A stretch of 64,000 nt of DNA from Fructilactobacillus ixorae (GTDB taxonomy: Bacteria; Bacillota; Bacilli; Lactobacillales; Lactobacillaceae), in contig NZ_CP097478.1 of assembly GCF_024029915.1 (NCBI RefSeq), positions 1,116,001 to 1,180,000 on the forward strand, in the 5' to 3' direction. The stretch's first letter is position 1, and each line of letters begins with the position of its first letter. Positions 18,244 to 39,144 of the stretch are shown one piece after another. Under the pieces are notes generated by a model. The model did no database searches. It saw only the letters and a list, made by a program, of their open reading frames with translations, and was not told the DNA's origin. The position numbers and the translations under genes were made by a program.

Positions 18244-18285
18244 GTAAGATAGCCAGTAACCTAACCAATGAAAGAAGGAATTAGT

Positions 18286-20205: not shown

Positions 20206-20206
20206 G

Positions 20207-20240
20207 CAAAAAGCCCACTGACACCAGTCAGCGGGCTTTT
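20207..20240. terminator. Bidirectional terminator
   Basis: AAAAGCCC.CTGAC / GTCAG.GGGCTTTT hairpin between two convergent genes. Confidence 0.85.
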
Positions 20241-20246
20241 GCCTTG

Positions 20247-21188
20247 TTATTCGTTAAATAAGAAGCGGTTAATGATGCGTTCAGAAACCTGATTGTCTAA
20301 GATCTGGGAGTGCTCCGCCATCGGACCAGTCAGCCGGAGCGACTCATAGTTTTTGGTCGGAACAAGGTGCTGCAATGCCGTCGCCGACTTGGCTGACACC
20401 CGTCCGTCGGAGTTCGTCCGTTTGTCGATCACCCCGTAGATGTTAAGCACCTGCGTATTTTGCTCTAAATGCTTCGCCATCTGTTTTAATTCCGCATAGG
20501 ACGGATAGCGGCTGTTAATCGCCTGCTGGCGTTCCAGAGCTTGTTGCCGGAGTAACGCTGGAGTGGGGCCTGCGGGATGCGCCTGGTTAGGCTTGGCCTG
20601 GGTTGGTTGGTTCCCGTTGCCGGGTTGGCCCGGTTGCTGTCTCAGTGGCGGGACGTTGACCGTTACCCCTTGGTACGGACCAGCGACCGACACGAAGTGC
20701 TTTAACTTCATCCGGTTCTGCTTCAGCCCGTAGGTCGTCGCGTTCGTAAAGACCGCAAGGCTTCCCGAACCAAATCCAATCGCATCATACTGTTCGTACT
20801 GATACTTACGGTTTAAATGGCGCAGGATGCGATTTAAGGCCACTGATTGCTCCTTAGTGGTCTTACTCCGGTCACTGAAATTAACCTCTATAATCGGCTG
20901 TTTCGCCTTTAAATTGCCATTGGGGTAGTAGTTAATCTGACCATCACTCAACACGTCGATGTGCATGGCAACGGAACCGCCAGAGCGACTCGCCGTCGTC
21001 ACCAAGTGCCGAGCCGCGGTTGACGTGCGGTTTTGGTCGGACACAAACATGATGGGTGCCTGCTGGGGTTTGTGCAACTTGCTCGGGGTAAAGCTACCGT
21101 AGTGAACGTAACAAAAACCTAAGAAAGCGGCAGTTAAGCCAATGACAAGGACCACGAAGTCCCATTTATGAAATATTTTTTTGTTCAA
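20247..21188 (-). CDS. DUF915-like alpha/beta hydrolase lacking the nucleophile serine
   Basis: This 313-residue protein has an N-terminal membrane anchor (about 9-27) and an extracellular alpha/beta-hydrolase domain of the DUF915 type. The family elbow normally reads G-H-S-M-G; here the matching strand turn is IGFGSGSLA, so glycine replaces the serine. The later Asp region (NSDGRVS, about 265) and His (EHSQ, about 297) remain. A Pro/Gln/Asn-rich insertion (about 180-210) interrupts the fold. It may be a catalytically dead surface protein, or the neighbouring serine may substitute. The promoter lies upstream of 21188; there is no operon partner. Confidence 0.7.
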   Translation of the reverse strand: MNKKIFHKWDFVVLVIGLTAAFLGFCYVHYGSFTPSKLHKPQQAPIMFVSDQNRTSTAARHLVTTASRSGGSVAMHIDVLSDGQINYYPNGNLKAKQPIIEVNFSDRSKTTKEQSVALNRILRHLNRKYQYEQYDAIGFGSGSLAVFTNATTYGLKQNRMKLKHFVSVAGPYQGVTVNVPPLRQQPGQPGNGNQPTQAKPNQAHPAGPTPALLRQQALERQQAINSRYPSYAELKQMAKHLEQNTQVLNIYGVIDKRTNSDGRVSAKSATALQHLVPTKNYESLRLTGPMAEHSQILDNQVSERIINRFLFNE

Positions 21189-21344
21189 AAAATCACCTTT
21201 TACATTAGTTTCGACTAAAAGTGTCTATGCTTATCTTACCACAGATCATTACGAAGCCCCTAGTTGAACCAGGCAAGAATTGCATTTTTCACTAATTAAT
21301 TATTTAATAGGTAGGAGACAAATATTTTGGAGGTCAGATTAATC

Positions 21345-21860
21345 ATGGAAGTAGTTATTGGAATTTTAGGCTTTATCGGAGATTGGCTACTCTTCATCTT
21401 TCCCCTCTACCAGGGCCAAATGGAGCTGATGGAGTCAAACTCCGTGTTTGCCAAGTATCAAATCAAGGGCCACAAACCCAAAAACGCCAGCTTGTTGGAA
21501 TGGATGATTCCCCCCCTCCTGTTCCGGCGGATTAAACGCACGGCGGGCAAGGCGCAAATCAATGATCTGATTAATAACAAAGAAGACTTTCAAAACTTCT
21601 ACAGCTTTTATAACAAAGGGCTCGCGTGGTACTTCGTGTCCTACGCCGGCTTTTTAAACGGGGTCTGTTCCACGTACGAACTAATCATCGAAAAGCTCGC
21701 CCTCGGTCGAATCGGAATCGTGATCTTTATCGTGGTCAGCCTGCTCATCTTCTTCGCGGGTCACTACTTCGTTAGTTACCTAACCAGTGGCAAACGGGAA
21801 AAACGCTTCATCAAGCGAATGCTCCCGATCGTCAAAAACACGATTAAGAATAAACAATAG
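21345..21860 (+). CDS. Hypothetical membrane protein
   Basis: A 171-residue protein that I do not recognise. It has a hydrophobic N-terminus (about 1-22), a basic amphipathic middle, and two further membrane segments (about 95-115 and 125-147), ending in a strongly basic cytoplasmic tail. The start is uncertain. ATG 21345 has GGAGG 12 bases upstream, whereas a TTG at 21327 has GTAGGAG 10 bases upstream. The gene is about 100 bases before the methionine aminopeptidase gene and is probably separate from it. Confidence 0.6.
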   Translation: MEVVIGILGFIGDWLLFIFPLYQGQMELMESNSVFAKYQIKGHKPKNASLLEWMIPPLLFRRIKRTAGKAQINDLINNKEDFQNFYSFYNKGLAWYFVSYAGFLNGVCSTYELIIEKLALGRIGIVIFIVVSLLIFFAGHYFVSYLTSGKREKRFIKRMLPIVKNTIKNKQ

Positions 21861-21967
21861 CAGTAAGCGGTGCCTCGACGGCGTGAGAACCCGAACCGCC
21901 ACATTCGTGGTATAGTGATGATAGCGACTCAGAAGCACTACTGCACTAGCACCAAAGGAGAACAACA

Positions 21968-22759
21968 TTGATAACTTTAAAATCAGAACGTGAAATTAAG
22001 AAAATGGCCGAATCCGGCGCCGTCCTAGCGGGGGTTCACAAAGGCCTGCAAAAGTTAATTAAGCCGGGCTTAGATACCTGGGAAATCGAAGAATTCGCGG
22101 ATAAATACATCACCGACCACGGGGCGACCCCGTCTGAAAAGGGCTTTGACGGCTACAAGTTTGGAACCTGTATCTCGATCAACGACGAAGTGGCCCACGG
22201 CATCCCCCGCAAGGGCTTGAAGCTCAAGTCCGGGGACCTCGTCAAGGTCGACATGTGTGTCAACAAGGACGGCTTTGAAAGTGACTCCTGCTGGACGTAT
22301 GCCGTGGGTAAGATTAGTCCTGAAGCCCAAAAACTAATGGACGTCACCAAGGAAGCCCTGTACAAGGGAATCGACCAGGCCCAAGTTGGCAACCGGATTG
22401 GTGACATTGGCTACGCCATCGAACACTACGTCGAAAACGAAAACCACATGGGCGACGTGCGGGAACTAATCGGTCACGGCATCCAACCCACGATTCACGA
22501 AGACCCAGCCGTTCCGGCCTACGGAGAAAAAGGCCGTGGGCTACGGCTACGGCCTGGCATGACGATCACGATTGAACCGATGGTGACGCTCGGGGGCTGG
22601 CGAATCAAAGACCGCTTCGACGACAAAGATGACTGGACCTATTACGTTACCGAAGACGGTTCCCTCTCAGCCCAGTATGAACACACCCTGGCGATTACGG
22701 AAGACGGCCCAAAGATTCTGACGTCGCAGGATCCGGAGGCAGATGCGAAGTATTTGTAA
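21968..22759 (+). CDS. map: Type I methionine aminopeptidase
   Basis: This 263-residue enzyme removes the initiator methionine from nascent proteins using a dinuclear metal site. Metal ligands are visible: Asp in VKVDMCV (about 98) and in ESDSCW (about 109), His in GHGIQPTIHEDP (about 173), and Glu in TIEPMV (about 206) and in YEHTLAI (about 238). Translation most likely starts at TTG 21968, with AAAGGAG six bases upstream, because no ATG is available. The gene ends about 50 bases before an IS3-type element. Confidence 0.9.
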   Translation: MITLKSEREIKKMAESGAVLAGVHKGLQKLIKPGLDTWEIEEFADKYITDHGATPSEKGFDGYKFGTCISINDEVAHGIPRKGLKLKSGDLVKVDMCVNKDGFESDSCWTYAVGKISPEAQKLMDVTKEALYKGIDQAQVGNRIGDIGYAIEHYVENENHMGDVRELIGHGIQPTIHEDPAVPAYGEKGRGLRLRPGMTITIEPMVTLGGWRIKDRFDDKDDWTYYVTEDGSLSAQYEHTLAITEDGPKILTSQDPEADAKYL

Positions 22760-22865: not shown

Positions 22866-23369
22866 ATGACTAAAATTTCAAAACAAATGAAGTATAAAGC
22901 AATGATGCAGTATTTTTATGAAAACAAGTCTCGTAGATATATAAGAGAAAAATATGTATTCAATAGTATGGCACTTAGAATGTTAATCAGTGGGTTTAGA
23001 ACCTTCGGTTCAGATGTATTGTTTAAACCACCCCAAGTAACTGCTTCCTTTAGAATCATGCTTACTGAATATAAAATCAGAAATAATGCCTCTTATATTC
23101 AAATAGCTAAAAAATTTGGATATTTAGGAATCGCTCAAATTTATCAATGGGAAAAAATATATCGCCAAAATGGTCAAAATGGGTTATTGTCTTTAAAAAA
23201 AGGACGGGAACCCAAAATGACAAAACAAAAGAAAAACAAGCAAGAATTAACTCCAGAACAAAACAAAATTAAACAATTAGAACAAGAAAATTTAGAGCTT
23301 CGTATTAAAAATAAAGCTTTAAAATTATTCGCCTCGATGAAGCAACCAACCGACAAAAAGCACAAGTAG
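22866..23369 (+). CDS. IS3-family OrfA (helix-turn-helix)
   Basis: A 167-residue basic DNA-binding protein with two helix-turn-helix-like regions (SRRYIREKYVFNS near 20 and YIQIAKKFGYLGIAQIYQWEK near 80). The C-terminus is a leucine-zipper-like coiled coil (about 125-155). The slippery heptamer T TTA AAA lies at 23318-23324 in this frame. A -1 shift there joins OrfA to OrfB to make the transposase. There is no ribosome binding site, because the ATG follows directly on a hairpin and T-run. Confidence 0.85.
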   Translation: MTKISKQMKYKAMMQYFYENKSRRYIREKYVFNSMALRMLISGFRTFGSDVLFKPPQVTASFRIMLTEYKIRNNASYIQIAKKFGYLGIAQIYQWEKIYRQNGQNGLLSLKKGREPKMTKQKKNKQELTPEQNKIKQLEQENLELRIKNKALKLFASMKQPTDKKHK

Positions 23370-23428
23370 TATGCCAACTCGAGGCGGAATTTAGATTAGT
23401 TGATATCTTAAAAGTTGTTCCAATCAAT

Positions 23429-24220
23429 ATGAATACCTTATGTTACTGGAAACGTAAATTTAAAAATTGTAATATCAAAGAAATCAATTTGAATGACTTA
23501 ATCTATCGGATTTGGAGTGAAGATAAACACTTAGGAATCCTACGGATTACTGCTATCCTAAAAAACAAATACCAACTTAAAATTAATCATAAGCGGGTTA
23601 AAAGAATCATGAATGAACTAAATATTTTCGGAATTGGATACACGAAAAAAATTAGGAAATATGATTCTTCCAAGGGACCAGAAGGGAAACGAGTTAAAAA
23701 CAAATTAAACCGTCGGTTTTATAGTAATCGACCATATCAAAAGCTGGTTTCAGATGTAACAGAATTTAAAGTTAAAAACGGAGAAAAGGTTTATTTGGAA
23801 CCAATTATGGATCTATATAACAATCAAATTTTGACTTATTCAATCACAGATGAAAGTCCTGATTTAAAATTTGCAGTTAAACCACTGGAAGATCTTCGGC
23901 TTAAGCTACCTAAAACCGGTTATAAGCTAATGCTTCATACTGATCAGGGTTGGCAATATCGCCATCGACGATGGCGGATGGAGCTTAAAAAAGCTAAAAT
24001 TACACAAAGTATGTCACGAAGAAGTTGTTGCTTAGATAACGCTTGTATTGAGAGTTTCTTCAACAAATTGAAAGTAGAAATTGGCAATCTTAAACAATTC
24101 AATTCCTCTGAGGAATTAATTGTGAAAATCAAAAAATGGATTAATTATTACAACACGGAACGAGTTCAAACAAAATTAGGCGGCTTGTCGCCGATAAAAT
24201 ATCAGAAACAAGCCGCCTAA
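23429..24220 (+). CDS. IS3-family OrfB, DDE transposase
   Basis: An rve-type integrase catalytic domain of 263 residues from the first ATG. The -1 reading frame is open back to the slippery site at 23318, so the real product is most likely an OrfAB fusion. DDE residues are visible in LVSDVTEFKV (Asp), MLHTDQGWQYR (Asp) and NACIESFFNKLK (Glu), followed by YYNTERVQTKLGGLSPIKY, the usual end. The frame is intact, so the element may be active. Confidence 0.85.
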   Translation: MNTLCYWKRKFKNCNIKEINLNDLIYRIWSEDKHLGILRITAILKNKYQLKINHKRVKRIMNELNIFGIGYTKKIRKYDSSKGPEGKRVKNKLNRRFYSNRPYQKLVSDVTEFKVKNGEKVYLEPIMDLYNNQILTYSITDESPDLKFAVKPLEDLRLKLPKTGYKLMLHTDQGWQYRHRRWRMELKKAKITQSMSRRSCCLDNACIESFFNKLKVEIGNLKQFNSSEELIVKIKKWINYYNTERVQTKLGGLSPIKYQKQAA

Positions 24221-25395: not shown

Positions 25396-26994
25396 TTATT
25401 CAAATTTTTCCTCTTCTAACAAATCTATCCATTTCTGTCCTTCATTGTTACATCTAGTATTAGCATTAACTCTTATATATTTTATATTATTTTTTTCTTC
25501 TATTTTTAATTTTTCAGCTAATTTTGTCCTTTTTTTATCTAAATCATCTGAACTAACATCGATAATAACTAACTTCTTTTTAAATCTAGTTATTAAAGTT
25601 CTAATTATACCGTTTATATGTTCGTCATCAGGATGAAACCCAAATCCAACGGAACAAATATAATCAGAGGCTTTTAATCTATCAAAAAAGTCAACATATT
25701 TTTTAAGCATATCGATTGATGTCATTGGCTTTGTTCCACTTTGTGTAAATAATAATGGAACAATTATATGATCATTTTCATCCGATTTATTAACTAATGA
25801 GTTTATATATGGATCATAGTAAATATCTACACCTCCATTTAAAAAAAGTATATTTTTTTTATCTTTGTCTTCTTTACCTTCATTCAAAGCTTCATCAATA
25901 AAATTACTATAATTAGTTGTCGCAATAACATTAATTAAAGATGAATGATCATGTAAATCTGAGTAGTAACCACCCTTATTTATTCTCATGTGCTTAGACT
26001 TTTTTTCTATATAATCTCTAACAGTGTAAAGAAACACTACGATTTTAGAAAACTTTGCCCACTCGTTTTTAGGGTTATATAAATAATGCCAATTTGAATC
26101 AATCAACGTTTTATAATCAATAACATCAGCATATATTTGTTCAACTATTTTATAAGCTACTTTAATAATTGGATCTGGATATAATTTATCATCATAGCTT
26201 TCAGAGAGTAAATTAAGTCCAGCAATACCAGCAGCATCATAATTAATATTTAGAGTACCTCCGAGATCATCGAAAAAATCAAGATTTAATTCATTTTTTT
26301 CAAAAACAGATTCTTCAGTTTGTCTTGAAATATTTTCACTCAATGCTCCAAGCTGTAATTGGAAAATTGCAGTTAAAAGATCCCTTAAAAAATTTTTAAT
26401 ATTTATTGAGTCATTAAAATCGTTATATTTATAGTAGAATATAAGCATCCCAAAGTAATCACTTTCAAACAATTCATTTCCATCATCAAAAAATTTATCA
26501 TATTAAATAAGTTGAGATAAATGCATATTCTCTATTTTAATTTTATGTCCTTTATCGTCTTCTTTATCTTTTAACTTTTCTGCAATAATTTTTTTAAATT
26601 TATCTGTCTGGCTGATACTATCAGAATTATTATCATTGTCATTTTCAGTAAATACATCTTTAATAGCTTTTTGTGCCAGAGTATCAAAATTATTTATTTT
26701 TTCTATTATTAATTTTCTGTTATTCCCAATAGTATCTTTAATTATTGTATTGAATACAGATTTCCCATAGGATGATATACTTTTCTTTCCATAATCTTTA
26801 GGTAACCATGTTGATGCGTAATTTGAGCTAGCATTAACATTTTCCCTCATTGTTCTTAATTTATCTTTACTTTCAGTTACCGGTTGTCGAAATATATCTA
26901 ATGCAAACTTACTTCCACTAGGCATACCATAACTCATTTCAGCACCTGCCCCGAAAAGAAAACCTATTTTTTTATTTGAGTTATTAGAATACAT
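25396..26994 (-). pseudogene. SIR2-like protein interrupted by one in-frame stop
   Basis: A 532-codon frame reads straight through except for a single TAA at 26503-26505. The start is ATG 26994 with GGAGG six bases before. The N-terminus has the SIR2-type nucleotide loop FLFGAGAEMSYGMPSG. Further on, TTNYSNF matches the family TTNxD region, LNGGVDIYYDP stands in the usual histidine-glycine segment, and VGFGFHPDDEHING matches the GxSxxD region. Proteins of this class deplete NAD+ or act as nucleotide-sensing effectors in anti-phage systems. It sits beside IS remnants and a type I modification locus. The 359-residue part after the stop has no good start site. DNA is about 30% GC. Confidence 0.7.
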
Positions 26995-27070
26995 CAAATC
27001 CTCCATGAATTTATTCTAAAAATATATTTTATTTTTAATAATATAATTATATGACTAATTTTAACATTGT

Positions 27071-28201: not shown

Positions 28202-31200
28202 TTATTTCTCTTCACGACGCTTGTAACCAAAGATTCCAAGGAACGCTAGTAACAATGCCCCAATCATACTCAAAATCCCAGTTGCTTGGTCTTCACCAGT
28301 CTGTGGCAACATTTGCTTTTGTGGTGCCGACGTAGCTTTTGGAGTTACTGGTGCTGGCGCCATTGGTTGAGCCGGTTGTGGCTGAACGGGTGCATCGGGT
28401 TGAACCGGAGTGCTTGGCTGTTGTGGCTCACCTAGCTGATCCGGAGTTGGTTGGGTTGGTTCCACTGGTTTCGTTGGAACTTCATTTTTAATGTAATGAA
28501 TTGGGGTATCTTTTCCAATATTTTCTGGTGCAATTGGATAAGGCGTTCCAGGAACCAACTTGTTCCCATTTCCGTCAACCGGCGTGTAACCAGGAATATC
28601 TGGAATCAACGGATCGTTGATCTTACTTGGATCATTCGGATCGTTAGGATAGATTTCCGGATTAGATCCCGGAACATCCGGAACTAAGTGACCTAGTGGT
28701 AGGTAGATAACTGTGACTTCAGCATCTTGCGTTTCCGGGGTAACCGTAACAGCATTAACTACTGGAGTTTTAGTGTAGTAGCCATTAACCACTGGTGACT
28801 TCACTTCGTTCCAACTACCACCCTGAGAAATCCACTTGCCGGTTTCAATGATCTTGCTGGTTACTTGGTCAAACGTCAGGTTACGCGTGTACTTCACCGT
28901 TTCCGTTACGTCTTTGGCAGCCGTTTGCCCGTTCGCGTACCGGTAGTGAATCGTCCGCGTAATGTTCTTCACTAACTGACTTTCGTCCGTTCCATCCGGG
29001 TATTTTGGTCCTTCCGGATTGTTCGGGTCAACTGGTTGCCCCGGTTGGCCTGGATTATCCGGCGTCACCGTTTTCGTCTTATGTTTCAACGTAACCGTGA
29101 ACGTCGGTTCATCCGTCCCAAACTTGTAGTTTGGCGTGTAGCCATCGTTTACTAGTTCGTAACCGTGTTTTTCAAGGTCCGCGATCTTCGTCTTCGTGGA
29201 GTAGTCCGACGTATCCCCAAACTTACCCGTTAACGTATCACTACTAATCGTCTTGTTATTTTCATCTTGATCAACGTAAACAACGTGGGCTTTTTCGTCG
29301 TTAGCGTGGTACGTAACCGTGACTTCACGATCCTGATCATCCGGGGTCGTTGTGGCCGCCCCAACCGTCGGTTGGTCAGCCGTGTAACCAGGGATTGCTG
29401 GCGAGTTTACTTCGTCGTAACTGTCCTTGTCGCTTTCCCACTTGCCGGTTTCAATGATCTTGCCGGTTACTTGGTCAAACGTCAAGCTCCGCGTGTACTT
29501 CACTGTTTCCGTTACGTCGTTAGCGGCCGTTTGCCCGTTCGCGTACCGGTAGTGAATCGTCCGCGTAATGTTCTTTACTAACTGACTTTCGTCCGTTCCA
29601 TCCGGGTATTTTGGTCCTTCCGGATTGTTTGGGTCAACTGGTTGTCCTGGTTGGCCTGGATTATCCGGCGTCACCGTTTTCGTCTTATGTTTCAACGTAA
29701 CCGTGAACGTCGGTTCATCCGTCCCAAACTTGTAGTTTGGCGTGTAGCCATCGTTTACTAGTTCGTAACCGTGTTTTTCAAGGTCCGCGATCTTCGTCTT
29801 CGTGGAGTAGTCCGACGTATCCCCAAACTTACCCGTTAACGTATCACTACTAATCGTCTTGTTATTTTCATCTTGATCAACGTAAACAACGTGGGCTTTT
29901 TCGTCGTTAGCGTGGTACGTAACCGTGACTTCACGATCCTGATCATCCGGGGTCGTTGTGGCCTCCCCAACCGTCGGTTGGTCAGCCGTGTAACCAGGGA
30001 TCGCTGGCGAGTTTACTTCGTCGTAACTGTCCTTGTCGCTTTCCCACTTGCCGGTTTCAATGATCTTGCCGGTTACTTGGTCAAACGTCAAGCTCCGCGT
30101 GTACTTCACTGTTTCCGTTACGTCTTTGGCAGCCGTTTGCCCGTTCGCGTACCGGTAGTGAATCGTCCGCGTAATGTTCTTTACTAACTGACTTTCGTCC
30201 GTTCCATCCGGGTATTTTGGTCCTTCCGGATTGTTTGGGTCAACTGGTTGTCCTGGTTGGCCTGGATTATCCGGCGTCACCGTCTTCGTCTTGTGTTTCA
30301 ACGTAACCGTGAACGTCGGTTCATCCGTCCCAAACTTGTAGTTTGGCGTGTAGCCATCGTTTACTAGTTCGTAACCGTGTTTTTCAAGGTCTGCGATCTT
30401 CGTCTTCGTGGAGTAGTCCGATGTATCCCCAAACTTACCCGTTAACGTATCACTACTAATCGTCTTGTTGTTTTCATCTTGATCAACGTAAACAACGTGG
30501 GCTTTTTCGTCGTTAGCGTGGTACGTAACCGTAACTTCACGATCCTGATCATCCGGGGTCGTTGTGGCTGCCCCAACCGTCGGTTGGTCAGCCGTGTAAC
30601 CAGGGATCGCTGGCGAGTTTACTTCGTCGTAACTGTCCTTGTCGCTTTCCCACTTGCCGGTTTCAATGATCTTGCCGGTTACTTGGTCAAACGTCAGGCT
30701 CCGCGTGTACTTCACTGTTTCCGTTACGTCGTTGGCGGCCGTTTGCCCGTTCGCGTACCGGTAGTGAATCGTCCGCGTAATGTTCTTCACTAACTGACTT
30801 TCGTCCGTTCCATCCGGATATTTTGGTCCTTCCGGATTGTTCGGGTCAACTGGTTGTCCCGGTTGGCCTGGATTATCCGGCGTCACCGTCTTCGTCTTGT
30901 GTTTCAACGTGACCGTGAACGTCGGTTCATCCGTCCCAAACTTGTAGTTTGGCGTGTAGCCATCGTTTACTAGTTCGTAACCGTGTTTTTCAAGGTCCAC
31001 GATCTTCGTCTTCGTGGAGTAGTCCGACGTATCCCCGAACTTACCCGTTAACGTATCACTACTAATCGTCTTGTTGTTTTCATCTTGATCAACGTAAACA
31101 ACGTGGGCTTTTTCGTCGTTAGCGTGGTACGTAACCGTAACTTCACGATCCTGATCATCCGGAGTCGTTGTAGCCGCCCCAACCGTCGGTTGGTCAGCCG

Positions 31201-34200
31201 TGTAACCAGGGATCGCTGGCGAGTTTACTTCGTCGTAACTGTCCTTGTCGCTTTCCCACTTGCCGGTTTCAATGATCTTTCCGGTTACTTGGTCAAACGT
31301 CAGGCTCCGCGTGTACTTCACCGTTTCCGTTACGTCGTTAGCGGCCGTTTGCCCGTTCGCGTACCGGTAGTGAATCGTCCGCGTAATGTTCTTCACTAAC
31401 TGACTTTCGTCCGTTCCATCCGGATATTTTGGTCCTTCCGGATTGTTCGGGTCAACTGGTTGTCCCGGTTGGCCTGGATTATCCGGCGTCACCGTCTTCG
31501 TCTTGTGTTTCAACGTGACCGTGAACGTCGGTTCATCCGTCCCAAACTTGTAGTTTGGCGTGTAGCCATCGTTTACTAGTTCGTAACCGTGTTTTTCAAG
31601 GTCCACGATCTTCGTCTTCGTGGAGTAGTCCGACGTATCCCCGAACTTACCCGTTAACGTATCACTACTAATCGTCTTGTTGTTTTCATCTTGATCAACG
31701 TAAACAACGTGGGCTTTTTCGTCGTTAGCGTGGTACGTAACCGTAACTTCACGATCCTGATCATCCGGAGTCGTTGTAGCCGCCCCAACCGTCGGTTGGT
31801 CAGCCGTGTAACCAGGGATCGCTGGCGAGTTTACTTCGTCGTAACTGTCCTTGTCGCTTTCCCACTTGCCGGTTTCAATGATCTTTCCGGTTACTTGGTC
31901 AAACGTCAGGCTCCGCGTGTACTTCACCGTTTCCGTTACGTCGTTAGCGGCCGTTTGCCCGTTCGCGTACCGGTAGTGAATCGTCCGCGTAATGTTCTTC
32001 ACTAACTGACTTTCGTCCGTTCCATCCGGGTATTTTGGTCCTTCCGGATTGTTCGGGTCAACTGGTTGTCCTGGTTGACCTGGATTATCCGGCGTCACCG
32101 TCTTCGTCTTGTGTTTCAACGTTACCTTGAACGTCGGTTCATCCGTCCCAAACTTGTAGTTTGGCGTGTAGCCATCGTTTACTAGTTCGTAACCTTGTTT
32201 TTCGAGGTCAGCGATCTTCGTCTTTGTGGAGTAGTCCGACGTATCCCCAAACTTACCCGTTAACGTATCACTACTAATAACTCTATCGTGATCATCCTGA
32301 TCAATATATTGAACGGTTGCTTTTTCATAATTAGTAATGTAGCGAACAATAACCGTTTCTTCAGTACCTTCAAGCACATTTTGCGAGACTACTCGTGGTT
32401 TATCTGGAGTATAACCATCAATTTGCGGTGACGGAACATCATAACTATTATCTTCATTTGGAATCCAGTTACCCCAGGTAATGCTATTAGTTTCAAGGTT
32501 TCTAGTTCCGAATCGGTGATAAGTAAACCGGAAAGTCTTATCGGCAGCGGCCTGCTTTCCTGCCTGTGGGCCATCGCCATAAGTATACTTAATGGTAACG
32601 TCTGAAACTCCTGAATTATCGGTTATCTGTTCGACCGTTTTCTTAAACTTAATTGTATAGACTAATTGATTGCCATCGTTATAAGAAAGAATAATCCCAT
32701 TTTCAGGAAAATCACTACTAATTTGTTTGTAGCCCTGATTTTCCAAATTTTTAGTTTCATCAGCAGGTGAATAATTAGACTTTTCATTGAGCTTGCCGCT
32801 AACGTGATCGGTGTGGAGTTCGTTCCCCTGATCATCAATATAGTGAATCACAGCACTTTGCTGATCAACTACATAGGGCACCCGGGTTTCTGCTCCAGGA
32901 TTGGTAATTGGGACTTTGGTTCCCGGAGTAGTCGTTTTACTCTGATCATTTGGATCTAACGGAACGTACCCTGGAATGTTTGGCAATGGAGTCGGGTTAG
33001 CCTTCGTTGGATCATTAGGATCAAGGGTATAGGGAACATCATGATTTCCGTTGTCAATCGGATTTCCTTGCTTGTCAACTGGAACTAACTTACTTAATTT
33101 ATTAATTTCAAAAACGATGTTTCTAGTCTGTGGAACATAGATTGGATAAAGGGCGTAGAATCCCGTTCCAGGTAAACTAGCATCATGGTTGCGATTTTGG
33201 ACTGCCCAACCATATTCTCGGGTTTGATCGTTAAATTTGTAGTTAGCATCAATGTGATAAGTTTCGCCATACTGGGTTCCATCGGGACTGTAAAGGCGCG
33301 CGTCCATTCCACCATGATCATCAGTTTCCGTGATTTTGAGGACAGATCCATCTCCATAATGGGTCGTCCACACCGTCCCCACTTTTCCAAACGGTGAAAT
33401 ACTACCACTCGCATTATCTGGGATTTGACTAATATAGTAATAACCATCTTTAACTTTATTAGGTAATCCCGTTACCTTAAAGTCTTGCCCGGTCAAGCCA
33501 TTAAAGTGTGATTCATAAACTGTTTGGTGCGTCTGTTGATCAACGTAGCGGACCGTATGCTCCACGTTGCGTGGAATTTGCACTTTTTCGATTCCTAAGT
33601 CAATTTTGCTCCCATTGTGATCAGCCAGCATCCAGTCTCGGTTAAACCGAATTGGCGAGGAAGAACTAGTATCAAGTCCCCCGGTAAAATCACCATTATT
33701 ACTGTAATAGAAATCCTCTAAGTTTTTCGAGTCTTGTCTCGTTTGTCGACCAGCCGGATCTCTTTGCAGAACGTACTGCCCGATAATCCGATTATCGTCA
33801 TCCAGTTCAAAAACATATAAGGTTCCATCGCCATTTCGATCCGTCGAGAACACGATCGTGCGAACTCCATTGGCTTGGTTAAATCCCTTAACTACTCGGT
33901 CATATTGAAAGGTATAGTGATTTGCATCTGGATCAGTCCAACGACCGCCATAATCCGGATCACCAACTTCAATTTTTAATCCATTTTCATCAACTACGTT
34001 ACTAGCTAAATTAGTTTGGGCAGCCTTAATTTGCTCAACTGCTTGTTTTGTTTGATTCGTAACTGGGTTCGCAACTGGGTTCGTAGCCTTGGCTTCGCTT
34101 TCAGAAGCGGTTTGCGCGGTGGAGCTTGGTGCACTGGTGGAATCAGTCTGCGACTCTGGAACGGCTGGTTCCGGCTTAGCTGCCTCAGGTGCTGGCACAT

Positions 34201-34753
34201 CGGTCTTGGTGGTTGCTGATTCATCCGCTGGTTGGGCTTGATTTACCGGAGTAAGCGCCTGTTGAGCGGTTGCTTGCTTATCCTCAGTTTTACCTGTACT
34301 TTTTGAATCCAGCTCGTCTGCTTTAGAATTAGACTGGTTTCCCTGCTGACTTACAGTCGGTTCATTACTGGTCTGGTCAGTCGTTTTTGAACTGGCTTGG
34401 CCAGCAGAATCAGTCGTGGATGGTGCTGGTTCAGGGTTTTTAGTGGGATTTGAATCACTACCCGGCGTAGTGACATTCGGTTTCGGAGCAGCTGGCTCAA
34501 CTTGTGGTTGAACCGCTGCCGGTTGCTTGGCAGGAGCTTGCTGTTCTTGCCCAAGCTTATTTTGCGCTTGATTAGAACTACCACCGGAATCGGCCGTCGC
34601 TTGGGTGGGTAAAGAACTAGTATCAGCGTGCACATCATTAACATTGAATGAATAAAAACTGGCAGAAATAGCAGTTACCGTAATGGCACTAAATAACCAT
34701 CTTTTCCCAGCTTTGTACATTTTATAATGCATTTTGCTGTCTTTAAACGGCAT
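28202..34753 (-). CDS. Large LPxTG-anchored MucBP-type surface adhesin
   Basis: This 2,183-residue cell-wall protein starts with a KxYKxGKxW-type signal peptide (MYKAGKRWLFSA, residues 12-23), linked in other species to accessory SecA2 export and glycosylation. Residues about 45-245 are a Ser/Thr/Pro/Gln-rich stalk. About 250-560 form a unique N-terminal region, possibly the binding head. A diverged MucBP unit follows, then six MucBP-containing units of about 202 residues, each with YVDQDENNKTISSDTLTGKF and a Pro-rich spacer (PGQPGQPVDPNNPEGP). The C-terminus has a Pro/Gln-rich wall-spanning part, LPQTGE, a hydrophobic helix and KRREEK. AAGGAGG precedes the ATG. It is expected to bind mucus or other glycans; the ligand is unknown. 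Confidence 0.9.
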   Translation of the reverse strand: MPFKDSKMHYKMYKAGKRWLFSAITVTAISASFYSFNVNDVHADTSSLPTQATADSGGSSNQAQNKLGQEQQAPAKQPAAVQPQVEPAAPKPNVTTPGSDSNPTKNPEPAPSTTDSAGQASSKTTDQTSNEPTVSQQGNQSNSKADELDSKSTGKTEDKQATAQQALTPVNQAQPADESATTKTDVPAPEAAKPEPAVPESQTDSTSAPSSTAQTASESEAKATNPVANPVTNQTKQAVEQIKAAQTNLASNVVDENGLKIEVGDPDYGGRWTDPDANHYTFQYDRVVKGFNQANGVRTIVFSTDRNGDGTLYVFELDDDNRIIGQYVLQRDPAGRQTRQDSKNLEDFYYSNNGDFTGGLDTSSSSPIRFNRDWMLADHNGSKIDLGIEKVQIPRNVEHTVRYVDQQTHQTVYESHFNGLTGQDFKVTGLPNKVKDGYYYISQIPDNASGSISPFGKVGTVWTTHYGDGSVLKITETDDHGGMDARLYSPDGTQYGETYHIDANYKFNDQTREYGWAVQNRNHDASLPGTGFYALYPIYVPQTRNIVFEINKLSKLVPVDKQGNPIDNGNHDVPYTLDPNDPTKANPTPLPNIPGYVPLDPNDQSKTTTPGTKVPITNPGAETRVPYVVDQQSAVIHYIDDQGNELHTDHVSGKLNEKSNYSPADETKNLENQGYKQISSDFPENGIILSYNDGNQLVYTIKFKKTVEQITDNSGVSDVTIKYTYGDGPQAGKQAAADKTFRFTYHRFGTRNLETNSITWGNWIPNEDNSYDVPSPQIDGYTPDKPRVVSQNVLEGTEETVIVRYITNYEKATVQYIDQDDHDRVISSDTLTGKFGDTSDYSTKTKIADLEKQGYELVNDGYTPNYKFGTDEPTFKVTLKHKTKTVTPDNPGQPGQPVDPNNPEGPKYPDGTDESQLVKNITRTIHYRYANGQTAANDVTETVKYTRSLTFDQVTGKIIETGKWESDKDSYDEVNSPAIPGYTADQPTVGAATTTPDDQDREVTVTYHANDEKAHVVYVDQDENNKTISSDTLTGKFGDTSDYSTKTKIVDLEKHGYELVNDGYTPNYKFGTDEPTFTVTLKHKTKTVTPDNPGQPGQPVDPNNPEGPKYPDGTDESQLVKNITRTIHYRYANGQTAANDVTETVKYTRSLTFDQVTGKIIETGKWESDKDSYDEVNSPAIPGYTADQPTVGAATTTPDDQDREVTVTYHANDEKAHVVYVDQDENNKTISSDTLTGKFGDTSDYSTKTKIVDLEKHGYELVNDGYTPNYKFGTDEPTFTVTLKHKTKTVTPDNPGQPGQPVDPNNPEGPKYPDGTDESQLVKNITRTIHYRYANGQTAANDVTETVKYTRSLTFDQVTGKIIETGKWESDKDSYDEVNSPAIPGYTADQPTVGAATTTPDDQDREVTVTYHANDEKAHVVYVDQDENNKTISSDTLTGKFGDTSDYSTKTKIADLEKHGYELVNDGYTPNYKFGTDEPTFTVTLKHKTKTVTPDNPGQPGQPVDPNNPEGPKYPDGTDESQLVKNITRTIHYRYANGQTAAKDVTETVKYTRSLTFDQVTGKIIETGKWESDKDSYDEVNSPAIPGYTADQPTVGEATTTPDDQDREVTVTYHANDEKAHVVYVDQDENNKTISSDTLTGKFGDTSDYSTKTKIADLEKHGYELVNDGYTPNYKFGTDEPTFTVTLKHKTKTVTPDNPGQPGQPVDPNNPEGPKYPDGTDESQLVKNITRTIHYRYANGQTAANDVTETVKYTRSLTFDQVTGKIIETGKWESDKDSYDEVNSPAIPGYTADQPTVGAATTTPDDQDREVTVTYHANDEKAHVVYVDQDENNKTISSDTLTGKFGDTSDYSTKTKIADLEKHGYELVNDGYTPNYKFGTDEPTFTVTLKHKTKTVTPDNPGQPGQPVDPNNPEGPKYPDGTDESQLVKNITRTIHYRYANGQTAAKDVTETVKYTRNLTFDQVTSKIIETGKWISQGGSWNEVKSPVVNGYYTKTPVVNAVTVTPETQDAEVTVIYLPLGHLVPDVPGSNPEIYPNDPNDPSKINDPLIPDIPGYTPVDGNGNKLVPGTPYPIAPENIGKDTPIHYIKNEVPTKPVEPTQPTPDQLGEPQQPSTPVQPDAPVQPQPAQPMAPAPVTPKATSAPQKQMLPQTGEDQATGILSMIGALLLAFLGIFGYKRREEK
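28842..32278 (-). repeat. Tandem 606-bp repeats inside the adhesin gene
   Basis: Near-identical copies recur at exactly 606-base intervals. For example, the TTGATCAACGTAAACAACGT anchor lies near 29273, 29879, 30485, 31091 and 31697. Edges at about 28842 and 32278 are where similarity fades. Most differences are third-position changes or swaps shared between non-adjacent copies (AAN/AAK, VGA/VGE, IVD/IAD), which points to recombination between units. Confidence 0.9.
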
Positions 34754-35062
34754 AAAAATTCCTCCTTAATTAACTAGAGCCAAAAATATAAAAATGGTTA
34801 TATATATAACTGCCCACACTATATGATTAAAGATGATTTTATGCAATCATTGTTTGTACAACATACGATTGCAAAACCTAACGCTCGCAAAATAAACCTA
34901 TAAATAATTAAAACTGCCCGCCTTGTTTTTATAACAAGACGAGCAGTCAAAAATTAATTCTTCAATTTCAAAACGACCGTACGCAGTAGCTTCTAAACTA
35001 GCCTTTCACAAATTATCCAGACCCCAGTTATTTTTAATCAACCAATCACTTTTAATTGTAGA
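34754..35062. other. Intergenic region: adhesin promoter and hsd operon end
   Basis: AT-rich. The left part (34754-34860) should hold the adhesin promoter and contains several TATATA-like stretches. A hairpin at 34909-34949 is followed by TTTTAATT on the minus strand. In the bases just before 35063, a short frame (LINQSLLIVDV) runs into the hsdS repeat, but it has no start and looks like a relic. Confidence 0.5.
34909..34949 (-). terminator. Probable terminator of the hsd region
   Basis: ACTGC.CG.CTTGTT / AACAAG.CG.GCAGT imperfect stem, with TTTTAATT following on the minus strand. No minus-strand gene ends close to it in the present orientation. It lies beyond the invertible segment and may be an old end of the hsdMS transcript. 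Confidence 0.5.
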
Positions 35063-35190
35063 TGTAAAACAGCGTAAGCTTGCTAAGTTGCGACAGCTAA
35101 AAAAGGCGTTACAACGCCATCTCTTCCCTGCTCCCGGCCAGTTAACCCCGGGCTTTAGATTTGCTAATTTCGCTGATAATTGGCAACAGC
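35063..35190 (+). repeat. Left 128-bp inverted repeat of the hsdS inversion system
   Basis: Identical by my reading, base for base, to the reverse complement of 36869-36996. It encodes the central conserved region of HsdS (QRKLAKLRQLKKALQRHLF to the NFADNWQQ start of the second recognition domain). Confidence 0.9.
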
Positions 35191-35732
35191 AAGACATCGC
35201 TAATTTAATTATTCGCAACACAACTAAAAACAAACAGTCAACCCTAAACAACGTGGAATCAATTTCAAATCAATCTGGTTTTGTTAAACAAACCAGTCAA
35301 TTTCCAAATGCTTCACTGTCACCAACCAATTTAAGCAACTACTATATTGTTAACCCCGGTTATTTTGCTTACAATCCATCTCGAATTAACGTAGGCTCAA
35401 TTGCTTATAAAACCGGTTCACATGCTTGTTTGGTATCACCATTATATGTCTCGTTCTATACCATCCCAGGTATCAACGATCAATATTTTTGGGAATGGTT
35501 ACAAACAGATGCTTTTATTAACCAACGACGTAGATTATCAAATCGTGGAATTCGCGATACATTATCATTCGAACAATTAGCTGAAATGAAATTAAAGTTT
35601 GGTAGCTATCAGGAACAAAAAATGATTGCCGATCTTCTAACCATAGTGGATCAACAAATCACCATTACTAACCAGAAAATAGCCAAGTTAGAAGGCTTAA
35701 AAAAAGCACTTTTGCAAAAAATGATTTTATAA
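35063..35732 (+). pseudogene. hsdS: Silent 3' half of hsdS (second target-recognition domain)
   Basis: An open frame without its own start or ribosome site. It begins in the inverted repeat and continues with 180 residues of a target-recognition domain (for example YYIVNPGYFAYNPSRINVGS and DQYFWEWLQTD). It ends in the C-terminal conserved helix (KIAKLEGLKKALLQKMIL). Joined in frame at the repeat to the first half at 36869-37493, it would give a 388-residue HsdS, the normal family length. In the sequenced orientation it is not expressed as part of HsdS. Confidence 0.85.
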
Positions 35733-35805
35733 ATGCAAATATTCCTAGATAATGTTACTGGTGCATTTATTTGTGCACAGTATGATAATCAAGGGAGCTT
35801 ATGAA

Positions 35806-36735
35806 ATGACTAAAAACAAAGAATCACAATTATTTTACGAGTATCTTGCTGACTGGATTAAAATCTATAAACAAGACGCCGTCCGCGACGTAACTCTTAA
35901 TAAATATCGAAGTAGCTTAAAATGGGTCCGCAGAATTGCGCCCACTTTATATTTAAAGGATCTAACCAAACGGACCTATCAAGAAATTATTAACGAATAT
36001 GCCGTTACGCATGAACACCAGACTACTTTAGATTTTCATCACCAAATTAAAAGTGCGATTTTAGATGCCGTTGACGAAGGGCTAATTCCCAGTAACCCTA
36101 CCAGAAATGCAGTCATTAAAGGTAAAACTCCCCGGAAAAAGAAATTAAAATTTTTAAATGAAGCTGAACTAAAAAAATTGATCCAGCAGTTGGACTTAGG
36201 TAACGAAATTAATTGGGACTGGTTTTTACTATTAATCATTAAAACTGGCCTTCGTTTTTCAGAAGCCCTTGCCGTTACTCCAAATGATTTTGATTTTAAT
36301 TCCAAAATGCTTCGCATTAATAAAACCTGGGACTATAAATCCATTCAGGGGGGCTTTCAAAAAACCAAAAATGAAGCTTCTGTGCGTAGCATCCAATTAG
36401 ACTGGCAATTATCCATGCAATTTTCGTTGCTAATTCACGGAATGCCACCAGAGAAACCCATTTTTATTTCCAACAAACGGATTTTTAATTCTACGATTAA
36501 CAATCATTTAAAATTATTATGCAAGCAAGCCGATATCCCAGTTATCACCGTCCACGGGCTCCGTCATACCCATGCTTCCTTGCTCTTGTTTGGAGATGTT
36601 TCAATTGCTACGGTAGCCGAACGACTAGGTCATTCTAGCATGACGACTACTCAGGAAACTTATATTCACATTATTCGTGAGCTAGAAGCCAAGGATAATG
36701 AGAAAATTATGCACCAAATGTCAAAATTAAACTAA
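35806..36735 (+). CDS. Tyrosine recombinase (hsdS invertase)
   Basis: A 309-residue phage-integrase-family recombinase. The N-terminal core-binding domain spans about 1-115. The catalytic domain shows Arg in KTGLRFSEAL (about 150), His-x-x-Arg in HGLRHTHAS (about 255), His in LGHSSMTTT (about 281), and the nucleophile Tyr in TQETYIHI (about 290). Start ATG 35806 has AAGGGA 10 bases upstream; the upstream frame to 35752 lacks a site. It lies between the two inverted repeats, the usual place for recombinases that shuffle hsdS in lactobacilli and streptococci. A GTGCA...TGCAC dyad (about 35761-35778) lies in its promoter region. Confidence 0.9.
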   Translation: MTKNKESQLFYEYLADWIKIYKQDAVRDVTLNKYRSSLKWVRRIAPTLYLKDLTKRTYQEIINEYAVTHEHQTTLDFHHQIKSAILDAVDEGLIPSNPTRNAVIKGKTPRKKKLKFLNEAELKKLIQQLDLGNEINWDWFLLLIIKTGLRFSEALAVTPNDFDFNSKMLRINKTWDYKSIQGGFQKTKNEASVRSIQLDWQLSMQFSLLIHGMPPEKPIFISNKRIFNSTINNHLKLLCKQADIPVITVHGLRHTHASLLLFGDVSIATVAERLGHSSMTTTQETYIHIIRELEAKDNEKIMHQMSKLN

Positions 36736-36835
36736 CTAAAAAACACCAAAATCATAAGGCTAACCACAAAAATTAGATGTTTGTCTAATTTTCATGAGGA
36801 AAGGACTAAATTATGATTTTGGTGTTTTTTAGTTA
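36733..36835. repeat. Nested palindrome between recombinase and hsdS ends
   Basis: A perfect 25-base arm at 36733-36757 pairs with 36811-36835. A second hairpin (AATTAGA.. / ..TCTAATT) sits in the middle. It overlaps the last codons of the truncated hsdS and the stop of the recombinase gene. With A/T-rich arms on both sides it can act as a terminator for both convergent genes. Confidence 0.7.
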
Positions 36836-37493
36836 CTTTTAAATTTTTGCAGGAAAAATGATGTTTTCGCTGTTGCCAATTATCAGCGAAATTAGCAAAT
36901 CTAAAGCCCGGGGTTAACTGGCCGGGAGCAGGGAAGAGATGGCGTTGTAACGCCTTTTTTAGCTGTCGCAACTTAGCAAGCTTACGCTGTTTTACAGTAA
37001 TAAGTTGGGTGAATGTTTGAAAGAACGCCCCAATTTTAGTTTGTTCAGCCCGAGTCGGCATCGTAATTGTGATTCTCTGTAGATCCGCTTTAGTTAGCTT
37101 CACTCTGCCTGTCCCAGTAAGATACGGGCGCATGTTGACTTTGTGCAAACTCATCCCAATAAACCACCAATCTACTGTTTCTTTCGGGGCAAGGACGTGC
37201 GTATGGTTATTAACCCAAATCCTATAACTTACCAGCTGAATTGGATAATCATTAACATCCCGGGCCCCATCTTCAGCAATTAAAATAAATTTCCCTTGGT
37301 GGGTAAAGCCTTGAACGTAATCCTGAATACCATTTGCGCCATAATAGGGAGTCGTGCCGGGAATTCGCTTACTTTTAGCAATTGGAATTCGCTTAACATC
37401 TAAGTTAACCGTAACCTGACTTAATTGTTGTTGTTCCCAAGGAGCAGAAAATTCTTGAAATCTAATTTCTGGAACATTTTTCAAGCTGATCAC
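36792..37493 (-). CDS. hsdS: HsdS specificity subunit, truncated (OFF or half-subunit form)
   Basis: A 233-residue product. Residues 1-208 are a genuine HsdS first half: VPEIRFQEFSAPWEQ start, one target-recognition domain (for example GTTPYYGANGIQDYV), and the conserved central helix. The last 25 residues (RKHHFSCKNLKVTKKHQN to the stop) are read from the palindrome and are unrelated. The second recognition domain sits silent at 35191-35732. The gene overlaps hsdM by four bases, so it is translationally coupled. A half-length HsdS could still dimerise and recognise a palindromic site, so the form may be active rather than dead. Confidence 0.85.
   Translation of the reverse strand: MISLKNVPEIRFQEFSAPWEQQQLSQVTVNLDVKRIPIAKSKRIPGTTPYYGANGIQDYVQGFTHQGKFILIAEDGARDVNDYPIQLVSYRIWVNNHTHVLAPKETVDWWFIGMSLHKVNMRPYLTGTGRVKLTKADLQRITITMPTRAEQTKIGAFFQTFTQLITVKQRKLAKLRQLKKALQRHLFPAPGQLTPGFRFANFADNWQQRKHHFSCKNLKVTKKHQNHNLVLSS
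36869..36996 (-). repeat. Right 128-bp inverted repeat of the hsdS inversion system
   Basis: Exact inverse of 35063-35190. It lies inside the hsdS gene at codons of the central conserved helix. Confidence 0.9.
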
Positions 37494-39073
37494 CTTAACA
37501 CTTTCTTAATTAACCTTAATTCATTTTGCTTTTCCGCAGTACTCCCACTTAAATTATTCAACATGCCATTAAGTTCCCGAATTAATCGCTTTTCGCGTTG
37601 ATGCAGTTCTTGCATTTCAGTGGCGACCTTTGCAACATTGACCGGAACTGCAGTTTCCACCGCATCTACATACCGATTAATGTTTAGTTTGTAGTGATTA
37701 GCTCGAATCTCATTCAAACTAGCGACATGGGCGTACTTATCAACATCTGTTCGGTCCAAATAGGTTTTTACAATTTGCGTAACATCACGTTGCCGTAATT
37801 GGTGTTGCTTTTTAATTTTGACGCCGTCATGGGAAGCGTCAATAAACAGTACATCATCACGCTCTCGTTGTTTTTCTAAAACCAAAATCACGGTTGCAAT
37901 TTCCGTATTAGTAAAAATTTTTTCTGGTAAGCCAATCACCGCTGAAATCTGATGGTGTTCTAGGAGCTGCTTACGAATTCTACCTTCGGCCCCACCGCAA
38001 AATAGCACTCCGTGGGGGAGGACAATCGCCATTCTCCCGGTTTGCTTCAAATGATACAAGCCGTGCAATAAAAAAGCATAATCTGCTTTCGACTTGGGAG
38101 CGATGCCCATTTCAAACTGGGGCTCATTTTCCCGATTTTGATTATCCCATCGGAGTGAATAGGGGGGATTCGCCATCACCGCATCAAATTTTAAGGACTC
38201 ATTAACTGTGCCTTCCGTTTCCAAAGTCCCACTGCGAGTGAGCGTGTCGGCATTTCGCAAGTGAAAATCCCGATAGTCTACTTGATGCATCATGAGATTC
38301 ATCCGGGCCAAATTATACGTGGTCGTCAGCAATTCTTGACCATAATACTGAATCGTCCCCGGTTGCTTAGCGTGTTGCAAATGCTTAGCAGTCGTTAGCA
38401 GTAATGATCCAGACCCCATGGTTGGATCATACAAGCGATAGTTTGTAGCTTCCTCATGACCCGCGGTGACAATCTGGGCCATGATTTCTGAAACTGGCTG
38501 TGGCGTATAAAATTCACCCGTCTTGGTGGCTGCATGAGTTGCAAACATTCCCATCAGGTATTCATACAAATCACCAAGCACATCCGAGTCATCATCTAAC
38601 TCGATTTCACTCATCAATTTAATCATGTCGGTAATGGTAGCCGTCCGTGCTTTAGCAGTGTTTCCCAGCCGGGTAGCGGTTAAATCCAGGTCCGCAAAAA
38701 TCCCAGACAACGCCGCGTTGGCGACGGGAGCAATCCGCTGTTGAAATCGCGTTAGTGCTGTTTGCATCATCTCAAGCTTAAATTGACCAGCTTCAATCGC
38801 AGCCTGCCAGTCAGAGAATAAGTCACCGGGTTGAATTACATACCCAAGCTGACTTTGCATCTTAGCAGTAATTTGCGCGGGCTGGGCTTGCCAGATTGCT
38901 TTCAAGCTGGTAGCGGGAGCGTGGGCTTGCAACCAAGCTTGTGCTTGCTTAGATAAATATTGATAGAACATAATCCCAAACACATAATTTTTGTATTCCA
39001 GCGGTTCCATCTTGCCCCGGGTTTGATTAAGGGTCCTCCATACGAGGGCTTCCGTCTTAGCATCTAGTACCAT
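37490..39073 (-). CDS. hsdM: Type I DNA methyltransferase subunit HsdM
   Basis: This 527-residue N6-adenine methyltransferase subunit shows the SAM-binding motif I DPTMGSGSLLL (about 216), the catalytic motif IV NPPYSLRWD (about 302), and an N-terminal helical HsdM_N domain starting LVWRTLNQTRGKMEPLEYKN. With HsdS it methylates adenine in bipartite targets. The start is ATG 39073 with AAGGAGG upstream; a TTG three bases earlier is too close to that site. It overlaps hsdS by ATGA. No hsdR lies up- or downstream in the window. Confidence 0.9.
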   Translation of the reverse strand: MVLDAKTEALVWRTLNQTRGKMEPLEYKNYVFGIMFYQYLSKQAQAWLQAHAPATSLKAIWQAQPAQITAKMQSQLGYVIQPGDLFSDWQAAIEAGQFKLEMMQTALTRFQQRIAPVANAALSGIFADLDLTATRLGNTAKARTATITDMIKLMSEIELDDDSDVLGDLYEYLMGMFATHAATKTGEFYTPQPVSEIMAQIVTAGHEEATNYRLYDPTMGSGSLLLTTAKHLQHAKQPGTIQYYGQELLTTTYNLARMNLMMHQVDYRDFHLRNADTLTRSGTLETEGTVNESLKFDAVMANPPYSLRWDNQNRENEPQFEMGIAPKSKADYAFLLHGLYHLKQTGRMAIVLPHGVLFCGGAEGRIRKQLLEHHQISAVIGLPEKIFTNTEIATVILVLEKQRERDDVLFIDASHDGVKIKKQHQLRQRDVTQIVKTYLDRTDVDKYAHVASLNEIRANHYKLNINRYVDAVETAVPVNVAKVATEMQELHQREKRLIRELNGMLNNLSGSTAEKQNELRLIKKVLR

Positions 39074-39144
39074 CAACGTCCTCCTTTTTTATAACTAGAC
39101 TTATCAAAAAACAACTATGTAATGAAAGTTGATTCCAATCATCG

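Follow-up and report, generated by a model that had tools for sequence, protein, structure and literature searches.

Type I specificity genes (hsdS) that are divided by a recombinase gene are usually expected to exchange one full allele for another. Analysis of a 64-kb stretch of a Fructilactobacillus genome (G000:C1:1116001-1180000; genome of 1.42 Mb in 2 contigs), hereafter called the window, revealed an hsdS gene that encodes only half a specificity subunit (HsdS) and a second, silent target recognition domain (TRD2) on the opposite strand. This arrangement raises the question of whether inversion switches the locus between a half and a full HsdS, and what the half form would do. Inversion probably switches the specificity gene of this IC-like type I DNA methyltransferase between two states, an interpretation that appears well supported by comparison with related loci.

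RESULTS

Organization of the hsd locus

The features of the locus are listed in Table 1. The original prediction described a perfect 128-bp inverted repeat around about 1.68 kb containing a tyrosine recombinase gene, and exactly this was found: the arms are 100% complementary over 128 nt, 1678 nt lie between them, and the gene between the hsdS parts encodes a tyrosine recombinase of the Phage_integrase family (E 8.9e-21). A chance origin of a perfect repeat of this length can be excluded. The arms connect the two hsdS parts and flank the recombinase gene and the silent TRD2, so that a site-specific tyrosine recombinase adjoins hsdS and the inverted repeats lie within hsdS at the TRD borders. 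The expressed hsdS starts with GTG and encodes 233 aa with one Methylase_S domain (E 9.8e-16); the silent plus-strand frame encodes a second (E 3.3e-8).

Table 1. Coordinates of the hsd locus within the window
Feature	Position	Strand	Remarks
Terminator-like hairpin, reading leftwards	34912..34948	-	weak support against shuffled sequences
Left arm of 128-nt inverted repeat	35063..35190	+	helix CR1 and start of TRD2
Predicted recombination core CAGCGTAAG, left	35070..35078	+	one copy per arm
Silent TRD2 and C-terminal helix	35191..35732	+	without ATG/GTG start of its own
Tyrosine recombinase, 309 aa	35806..36735	+	Phage_integrase family
Hairpin, 29-nt near-perfect arms (97%)	36729..36839	.	between convergent ends of recombinase gene and half hsdS
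Expressed half hsdS	36792..37493	-	TRD1 and CR1 helix (residues 1-208), then 25 stray residues
Right arm of 128-nt inverted repeat	36869..36996	-	inside expressed hsdS
Predicted recombination core CAGCGTAAG, right	36981..36989	-	one copy per arm
hsdM, 528 aa, IC-like	37490..39076	-	4-nt overlap with hsdS start

The recombinase start was judged by eye and is more likely at 35806, where GGAG precedes a frame of 309 aa, than at the first in-frame ATG at 35752. Residues R150, H250, R253, H276, and Y286 are retained by 97% or more of the 116 rows aligned; we take them to be the catalytic positions of the tyrosine recombinase. The hairpin at 36729..36839 appears terminator-like by eye, and that at 34912..34948 would lie downstream of hsdM, hsdS, and the recombinase gene in the full state; terminator-like sites numbered 7 in all, compared with 5.5 ± 2.7 in shuffled sequences. 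Promoter prediction gave no usable excess (16 sites versus 14.2 ± 3.6 in shuffles). In a plasmid search, the best places covered at most 20% of the query, nearly all at 60 to 80% identity.

To the left of the locus, positions 28202-34753 (minus strand) encode a 2183-aa surface protein with a KxYKxGKxW signal, an LPQTG end, and seven Muc_B2 and seven MucBP_2 stretches; the gene contains near-identical repeats of about 600 bp. Two neighboring frames at 25396-27006 (minus strand), the first weakly SIR2-like (PADLOC E 5e-4) and the second without a family match, perhaps represent one broken SIR2-type defense gene. A frame pair with helix-turn-helix and rve integrase-core domains at 22866-24220 (plus strand) resembles an IS3-like transposase.

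Half and predicted full forms of HsdS

Inversion of positions 35063-36996 in silico yielded an open HsdS frame of 388 residues from the GTG start, composed of 208 fixed residues and 180 contributed by the silent frame; the product contains both half domains in frame. The expectation that the silent opposite-strand domain joins in frame (208+180) was thus reproduced by scripted inversion. The sequenced form likewise corresponds to the earlier description of one recognition domain with 25 junk residues, since its 208 HsdS residues are followed by 25 residues unrelated to HsdS. The HsdS reading frame stops where the repeat stops, and there is no simple-sequence tract at this point.

An AlphaFold model of the half protein (45-row alignment, mean pLDDT 87.6) showed a confident TRD, a helix at residues 148-186, and low confidence for the last 25 residues. 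According to this model, the half HsdS is a TRD with a complete helix. Comparison of the model with the PDB gave 14 matches at E <= 0.001, including the HsdS chains 5ybb, 1ydx, 3okg, 1yf2, and 7bst. The two helices of the joined HsdS are identical at 12 of 32 positions, a value reached in 1 of 100,000 shuffles.

A protein search with the half HsdS accepted candidates of 0.55 to 1.75 times the query length, so that the 388-aa full form would qualify; no opposite orientation was seen among the best 120 of 3676 matches. Within these 120, only this genome's own protein was near-identical, and the next half-length match was 55% identical. The species is represented by one sequence, in one orientation, among the matches listed.

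Methyltransferase type and restriction gene

The hsdM product scored 273.9 bits against EcoR124II M and 48.6 against EcoKI M. By this measure it is IC-like, closer to EcoR124II than to EcoKI, and both HsdS halves carry similar dimerization helices. The hsdR profiles TIGR00348 and PF04313 matched nothing in this genome, a search that a divergent hsdR could escape; of the 10 genomes of the genus, 5 had a PF04313 match, as did 9 of 14 controls. A complete type I restriction-modification system, with hsdR in the genome, was thus not detected with these profiles. Because no hsdR was found, the locus looks like a methylation-only switch, which would alter the methylation pattern rather than restriction. 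A second hsdM-hsdS pair at another place in the genome encodes a full HsdS and has neither a repeat of at least 25 nt nor an adjoining recombinase gene.

Related loci in Fructilactobacillus

The recombinase was detected at E <= 1e-40 in 5 of 10 genus genomes, the source genome counted. Two of them, G001 and G002, show the same layout and orientation as the window (silent TRD2, recombinase, half hsdS, hsdM), and when they are inverted at the short repeat, uninterrupted full HsdS frames result, with 392 codons in G001 and 394 in G002, compared with 392 in the window by the same counting. Their TRD2 sequences are 52 to 61% identical to that of the window. All three known half/full loci sit in the half orientation; one core copy is altered in G001, and hsdM is broken in G002. 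The left flank of the G002 locus matches the surface-protein gene of the window (66% over 1572 residues), and that of G001 matches it at the stretch edge (40% over 281 residues). Unlike in the window, other genes are inserted between the half locus and the surface-protein gene in both genomes. We propose that the three half loci are orthologous, a claim carried by this left-flank synteny.

G001 and G002 also contain hsdR, and a classical locus (hsdS, recombinase, hsdS, hsdM) adjoins their half locus; G005 contains only the classical locus. Parts of the classical loci are broken, for example the recombinase gene in G002 and G005 and an hsdS frame in G001. At L034 16744-19140 (G002) and L038 6998-8204 (G005), the recombinase is split into facing pieces within inverted repeats of 975 nt and 504 nt, respectively, as if these two classical loci were locked. 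The window hsdM is 66% identical to the classical-locus copies versus 59% to the half-locus copy of G001. In the hsdM tree, five of six inner branches are open and the window hsdM forms a long branch; its history may include exchange between loci. The gene block at window positions 18265-22756 corresponds to L035 5948-9000 (G001) and L038 11014-14999 (G005). In G001 and G005, it flanks the classical locus on its hsdM side; in the window, it is found on the opposite side, past the surface-protein gene, which amounts to a rearrangement around the hsd region.

Conservation of the silent TRD2

The three half loci allowed the silent TRD2 to be compared with the expressed TRD1. At codon positions 1/2/3, TRD2 of the window differs by 0.29/0.20/0.56 from G002 and by 0.39/0.24/0.59 from G001, and TRD1 by 0.29/0.18/0.54 and 0.31/0.17/0.54, respectively. 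The difference between positions 2 and 3 gave p values of ~1e-11 to 1e-15 across the three TRD2 pairs. Codon positions were used because synonymous change was saturated and several dN/dS estimates failed, so that dN/dS was not relied on. TRD2 therefore looks selected as protein, with the signature of the expressed TRD1, although, with synonymous change saturated, this signal speaks for the long term only. The only start of the frame as sequenced is a TTG at 35088, inside the repeat, and inversion would be the simplest route by which selection could act on TRD2. A hairpin with a T run lies ahead of TRD2 in G001 and G002, as judged by eye. The suggestion that terminators shield TRD2 in all three species proved too strong, since the window hairpin at this place reads leftwards.

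Repeat arms and predicted recombination core

Inward of the core, 105 bases are identical in both arms of the window. The inner arms of G002 and G001 match at 66 and 62 of 115 columns (0.57 and 0.54) and have decayed to a level hardly above that of random pairs (median, 0.50; 95th percentile, 0.54; maximum, 0.57; n=200). Because the inner arms are identical here and decayed in the relatives, the window arms must have acquired their identity recently. A site-specific exchange confined to the core would not equalize them, so gene conversion or homologous exchange is the likely cause.

The window contains two copies of the predicted core CAGCGTAAG in its 64 kb, one in each arm. Across 106 stretches from Lactobacillaceae that carry this recombinase, 198 copies were counted, whereas shuffled anagrams of CAGCGTAAG (up to 300) averaged 4.6 copies and never exceeded 23. 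An inverted pair surrounds the recombinase gene in 38 of the 106 stretches and in at most 1 for the anagrams. Since CAGCGTAAG encodes the QRK of HsdS, QRK codon usage was compared: 192 of 325 QRK in HsdS frames are coded exactly by CAGCGTAAG, versus 2 of 20 in non-HsdS frames of at least 200 aa, although relatedness among loci inflates both the core and the QRK counts. QRK is conserved as protein too, and part of the core enrichment may therefore be coding. For Listeria monocytogenes ST8, the published account infers inversions at agcttgggaacagcgt and ctatcgctcttcatcagcgtaagttagat; the former has CAGCGT in common with the core, and the latter contains the whole CAGCGTAAG (PMC4783014).

Layouts in Lactobacillaceae and other bacteria

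At E <= 1e-90, the recombinase was detected in 113 of 397 family genomes and 23 of 40 genera. Of the places listed outside the genus, 100 were analyzed, and the layout survey covered 121 stretches, made up of the window, further places in the genus and the family, and 13 loci from other bacteria; 28 stretches lacked hsdM. Among 86 hsdS frames adjoining hsdM, 63 are uninterrupted with two domains, and 22 encode one half domain and are shorter than 280 aa. Another hsdS or a piece of one lies upstream of hsdM in 11 of these 22 (L160, L016, L136, L117, L145, L114, L131, L132, L110, L140, and L127), and 5 are interrupted (L035, L134, L099, L152, and the second locus of L034). The remaining six are the window, L036 (G001), L141, L147, L167, and L175; the half locus of L034 is outside the 86 because its hsdM is broken.

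Inversion predicts a full-to-full exchange at 14 loci with a repeat of 108 to 146 nt at the same junction (L083, L084, L086-L091, L098, L100, L113, L162, L178, and L179). In L141 and L175, the single half domain flips to a full frame, and at 17 loci inversion between a short repeat pair would leave only one half domain. Half states thus occur in larger shufflers as well, and half/full switching is not unique to the window locus. The original prediction of a half/full switch that differs from the usual swap of full alleles holds in this difference, but needs to be narrowed in this respect. Confined to the window and its two relatives among the mapped loci is a locus with two TRDs only, split by the repeat.

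Two loci, L150 and L163, were considered as the ON state of the same design because they contain hsdM, a full hsdS, a co-directional recombinase gene, and no other TRD in the stretch; they were rejected, as the search for a sufficiently large inverted repeat found none there. In a recurring layout (L110, L114, L117, L131, L132, L136, L140, and L145), a full hsdS lies upstream of hsdM, and downstream of hsdM there is one half domain together with a recombinase of the same family. In L147, hsdM is followed on the same strand by a half hsdS (234 codons) and a full hsdS (400 codons), and no flanking inverted repeat was found.

DISCUSSION

Proposed mechanism

In the proposed switch, the recombinase would act at CAGCGTAAG, which is located close to the outer boundary of either arm, and invert 1.9 kb. 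The sequenced state would express hsdM followed by the half HsdS (TRD1, helix, and 25 stray residues); in the other state, as predicted in silico, TRD2 would be joined in frame to give the two-domain HsdS of 388 aa, whose expected target for methylation is a bipartite, asymmetric site. The half form would be either inactive or a homodimer methylating a palindromic site built from the TRD1 half-site. The full state would place the recombinase gene directly downstream of hsdS and in the same direction, where it may be co-transcribed, which would favor return to the half state; speculatively, this could account for the half orientation of all three known loci.

Comparison with known systems

Inverting hsdS loci have been surveyed, with Lactobacillus species among those mentioned (PMC7394358). 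The nearest studied case is LreRMII/lsrA of Limosilactobacillus reuteri, which shares with the window locus an hsdM, facing hsdS parts across a site-specific recombinase gene, inverted repeats in hsdS, and TRDs rearranged in strains; unlike the window locus, it has two full hsdS genes and hsdR, and the forms reported in that account all have two TRDs (PMC6122466). The hsd locus of L. monocytogenes ST8 also combines two inverted repeats in hsdS with an integrase, but is described with four full-length configurations and hsdR (PMC4783014). In the pneumococcal locus (cod/SpnD39III/Spn556II), the psrA tyrosine recombinase inverts at a 15-bp repeat and the C-terminal TRD is exchanged; there, however, silent genes provide alternative TRDs and inversion leads to full alleles, and the short alleles described arise from excision and show no methylation (PMC4190663, PMC4948785). 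NgoAV of Neisseria gonorrhoeae is alike in its outcome, with phase-variable half (208-aa) and long HsdS of different specificities, the half form being palindromic, but its switch is described as a poly-G frameshift, with neither recombinase nor inversion (PMC9577141, PMC3874165, PMC7394358). In the usual inverting hsdS loci, all forms are full-length with two TRDs, a usual rather than strictly defining feature, whereas one form of the window locus has a single TRD. Searches of the open-access literature revealed no inversion described as switching between half and full HsdS.

Alternative explanations

Published results on half HsdS point both ways, so that an active half form and an inactive one are left nearly even. 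That the half form is simply OFF, making the locus an ON/OFF phase-variable methyltransferase within the two-state reading, has a probability somewhat short of even. This possibility agrees with reports that an N-terminal half HsdS from Staphylococcus xylosus gave no modification (PMC10030836), that pneumococcal alleles shortened by excision gave no methylation (PMC4948785), and that a pneumococcal tvr locus whose C-terminal TRD is short was judged inactive, a dimer having first been considered (PMC6265443). Against it, truncations of EcoR124I and EcoDXXI and the natural NgoAV, all type IC, are described as half HsdS homodimers active on palindromes (PMC3874165), the window hsdM is IC-like, and the truncated NgoAV HsdS has 208 aa, the length of the HsdS part in the window half form (PMC9577141). 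The more specific proposal, a restriction-less methyltransferase that flips between a palindromic homodimeric half HsdS and a full HsdS with a bipartite site, as a minimal switch in at least three Fructilactobacillus lineages, is tentative and less likely than not.

Two explanations dispense with switching. The locus would be a functionless remnant if a classical shuffler with two hsdS genes had, besides hsdR, lost one TRD on each side (TRD2 on one, TRD1 on the other) and had become locked in the half state. The missing hsdR, the stray tail, and the common orientation of the three loci are compatible with such decay, as are the broken hsdM of G002, the altered core of G001, and the adjoining, partly broken classical loci with the same recombinase type in G001 and G002. 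It is nevertheless improbable, because hsdM, the half hsdS, the recombinase gene, and TRD2 are all open in the window, its arms are identical over 128 nt despite the decayed inner arms of the relatives, and TRD2 has kept both its frame and the signature of selection as protein in the three species. Alternatively, TRD2 could be translated as sequenced, from the TTG at 35088, and the halves could assemble in trans. Such a split subunit would also account for selection on TRD2, and co-expressed N- and C-terminal halves of EcoDXXI are reported to restore wild-type activity (PMC3874165). We consider it very unlikely, since no ATG or GTG precedes TRD2 in frame in the window, the upstream sequence is not conserved, the T-run hairpins lie ahead of TRD2 in the two relatives, and the recombinase and the repeat would be left unexplained.

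Significance

Inverting type I systems are known to swap alleles, and half/full switching is known from NgoAV through a slippage tract. If the two-state switch proposed here is correct, what is new is that inversion performs half/full switching in a minimal locus of two TRDs in which no restriction gene was detected. The nine-base core CAGCGTAAG offers a cheap DNA signature for finding such switches. The locus would also provide a simple natural test of whether a Gram-positive type I half HsdS acts as a homodimer, a point on which published results disagree.
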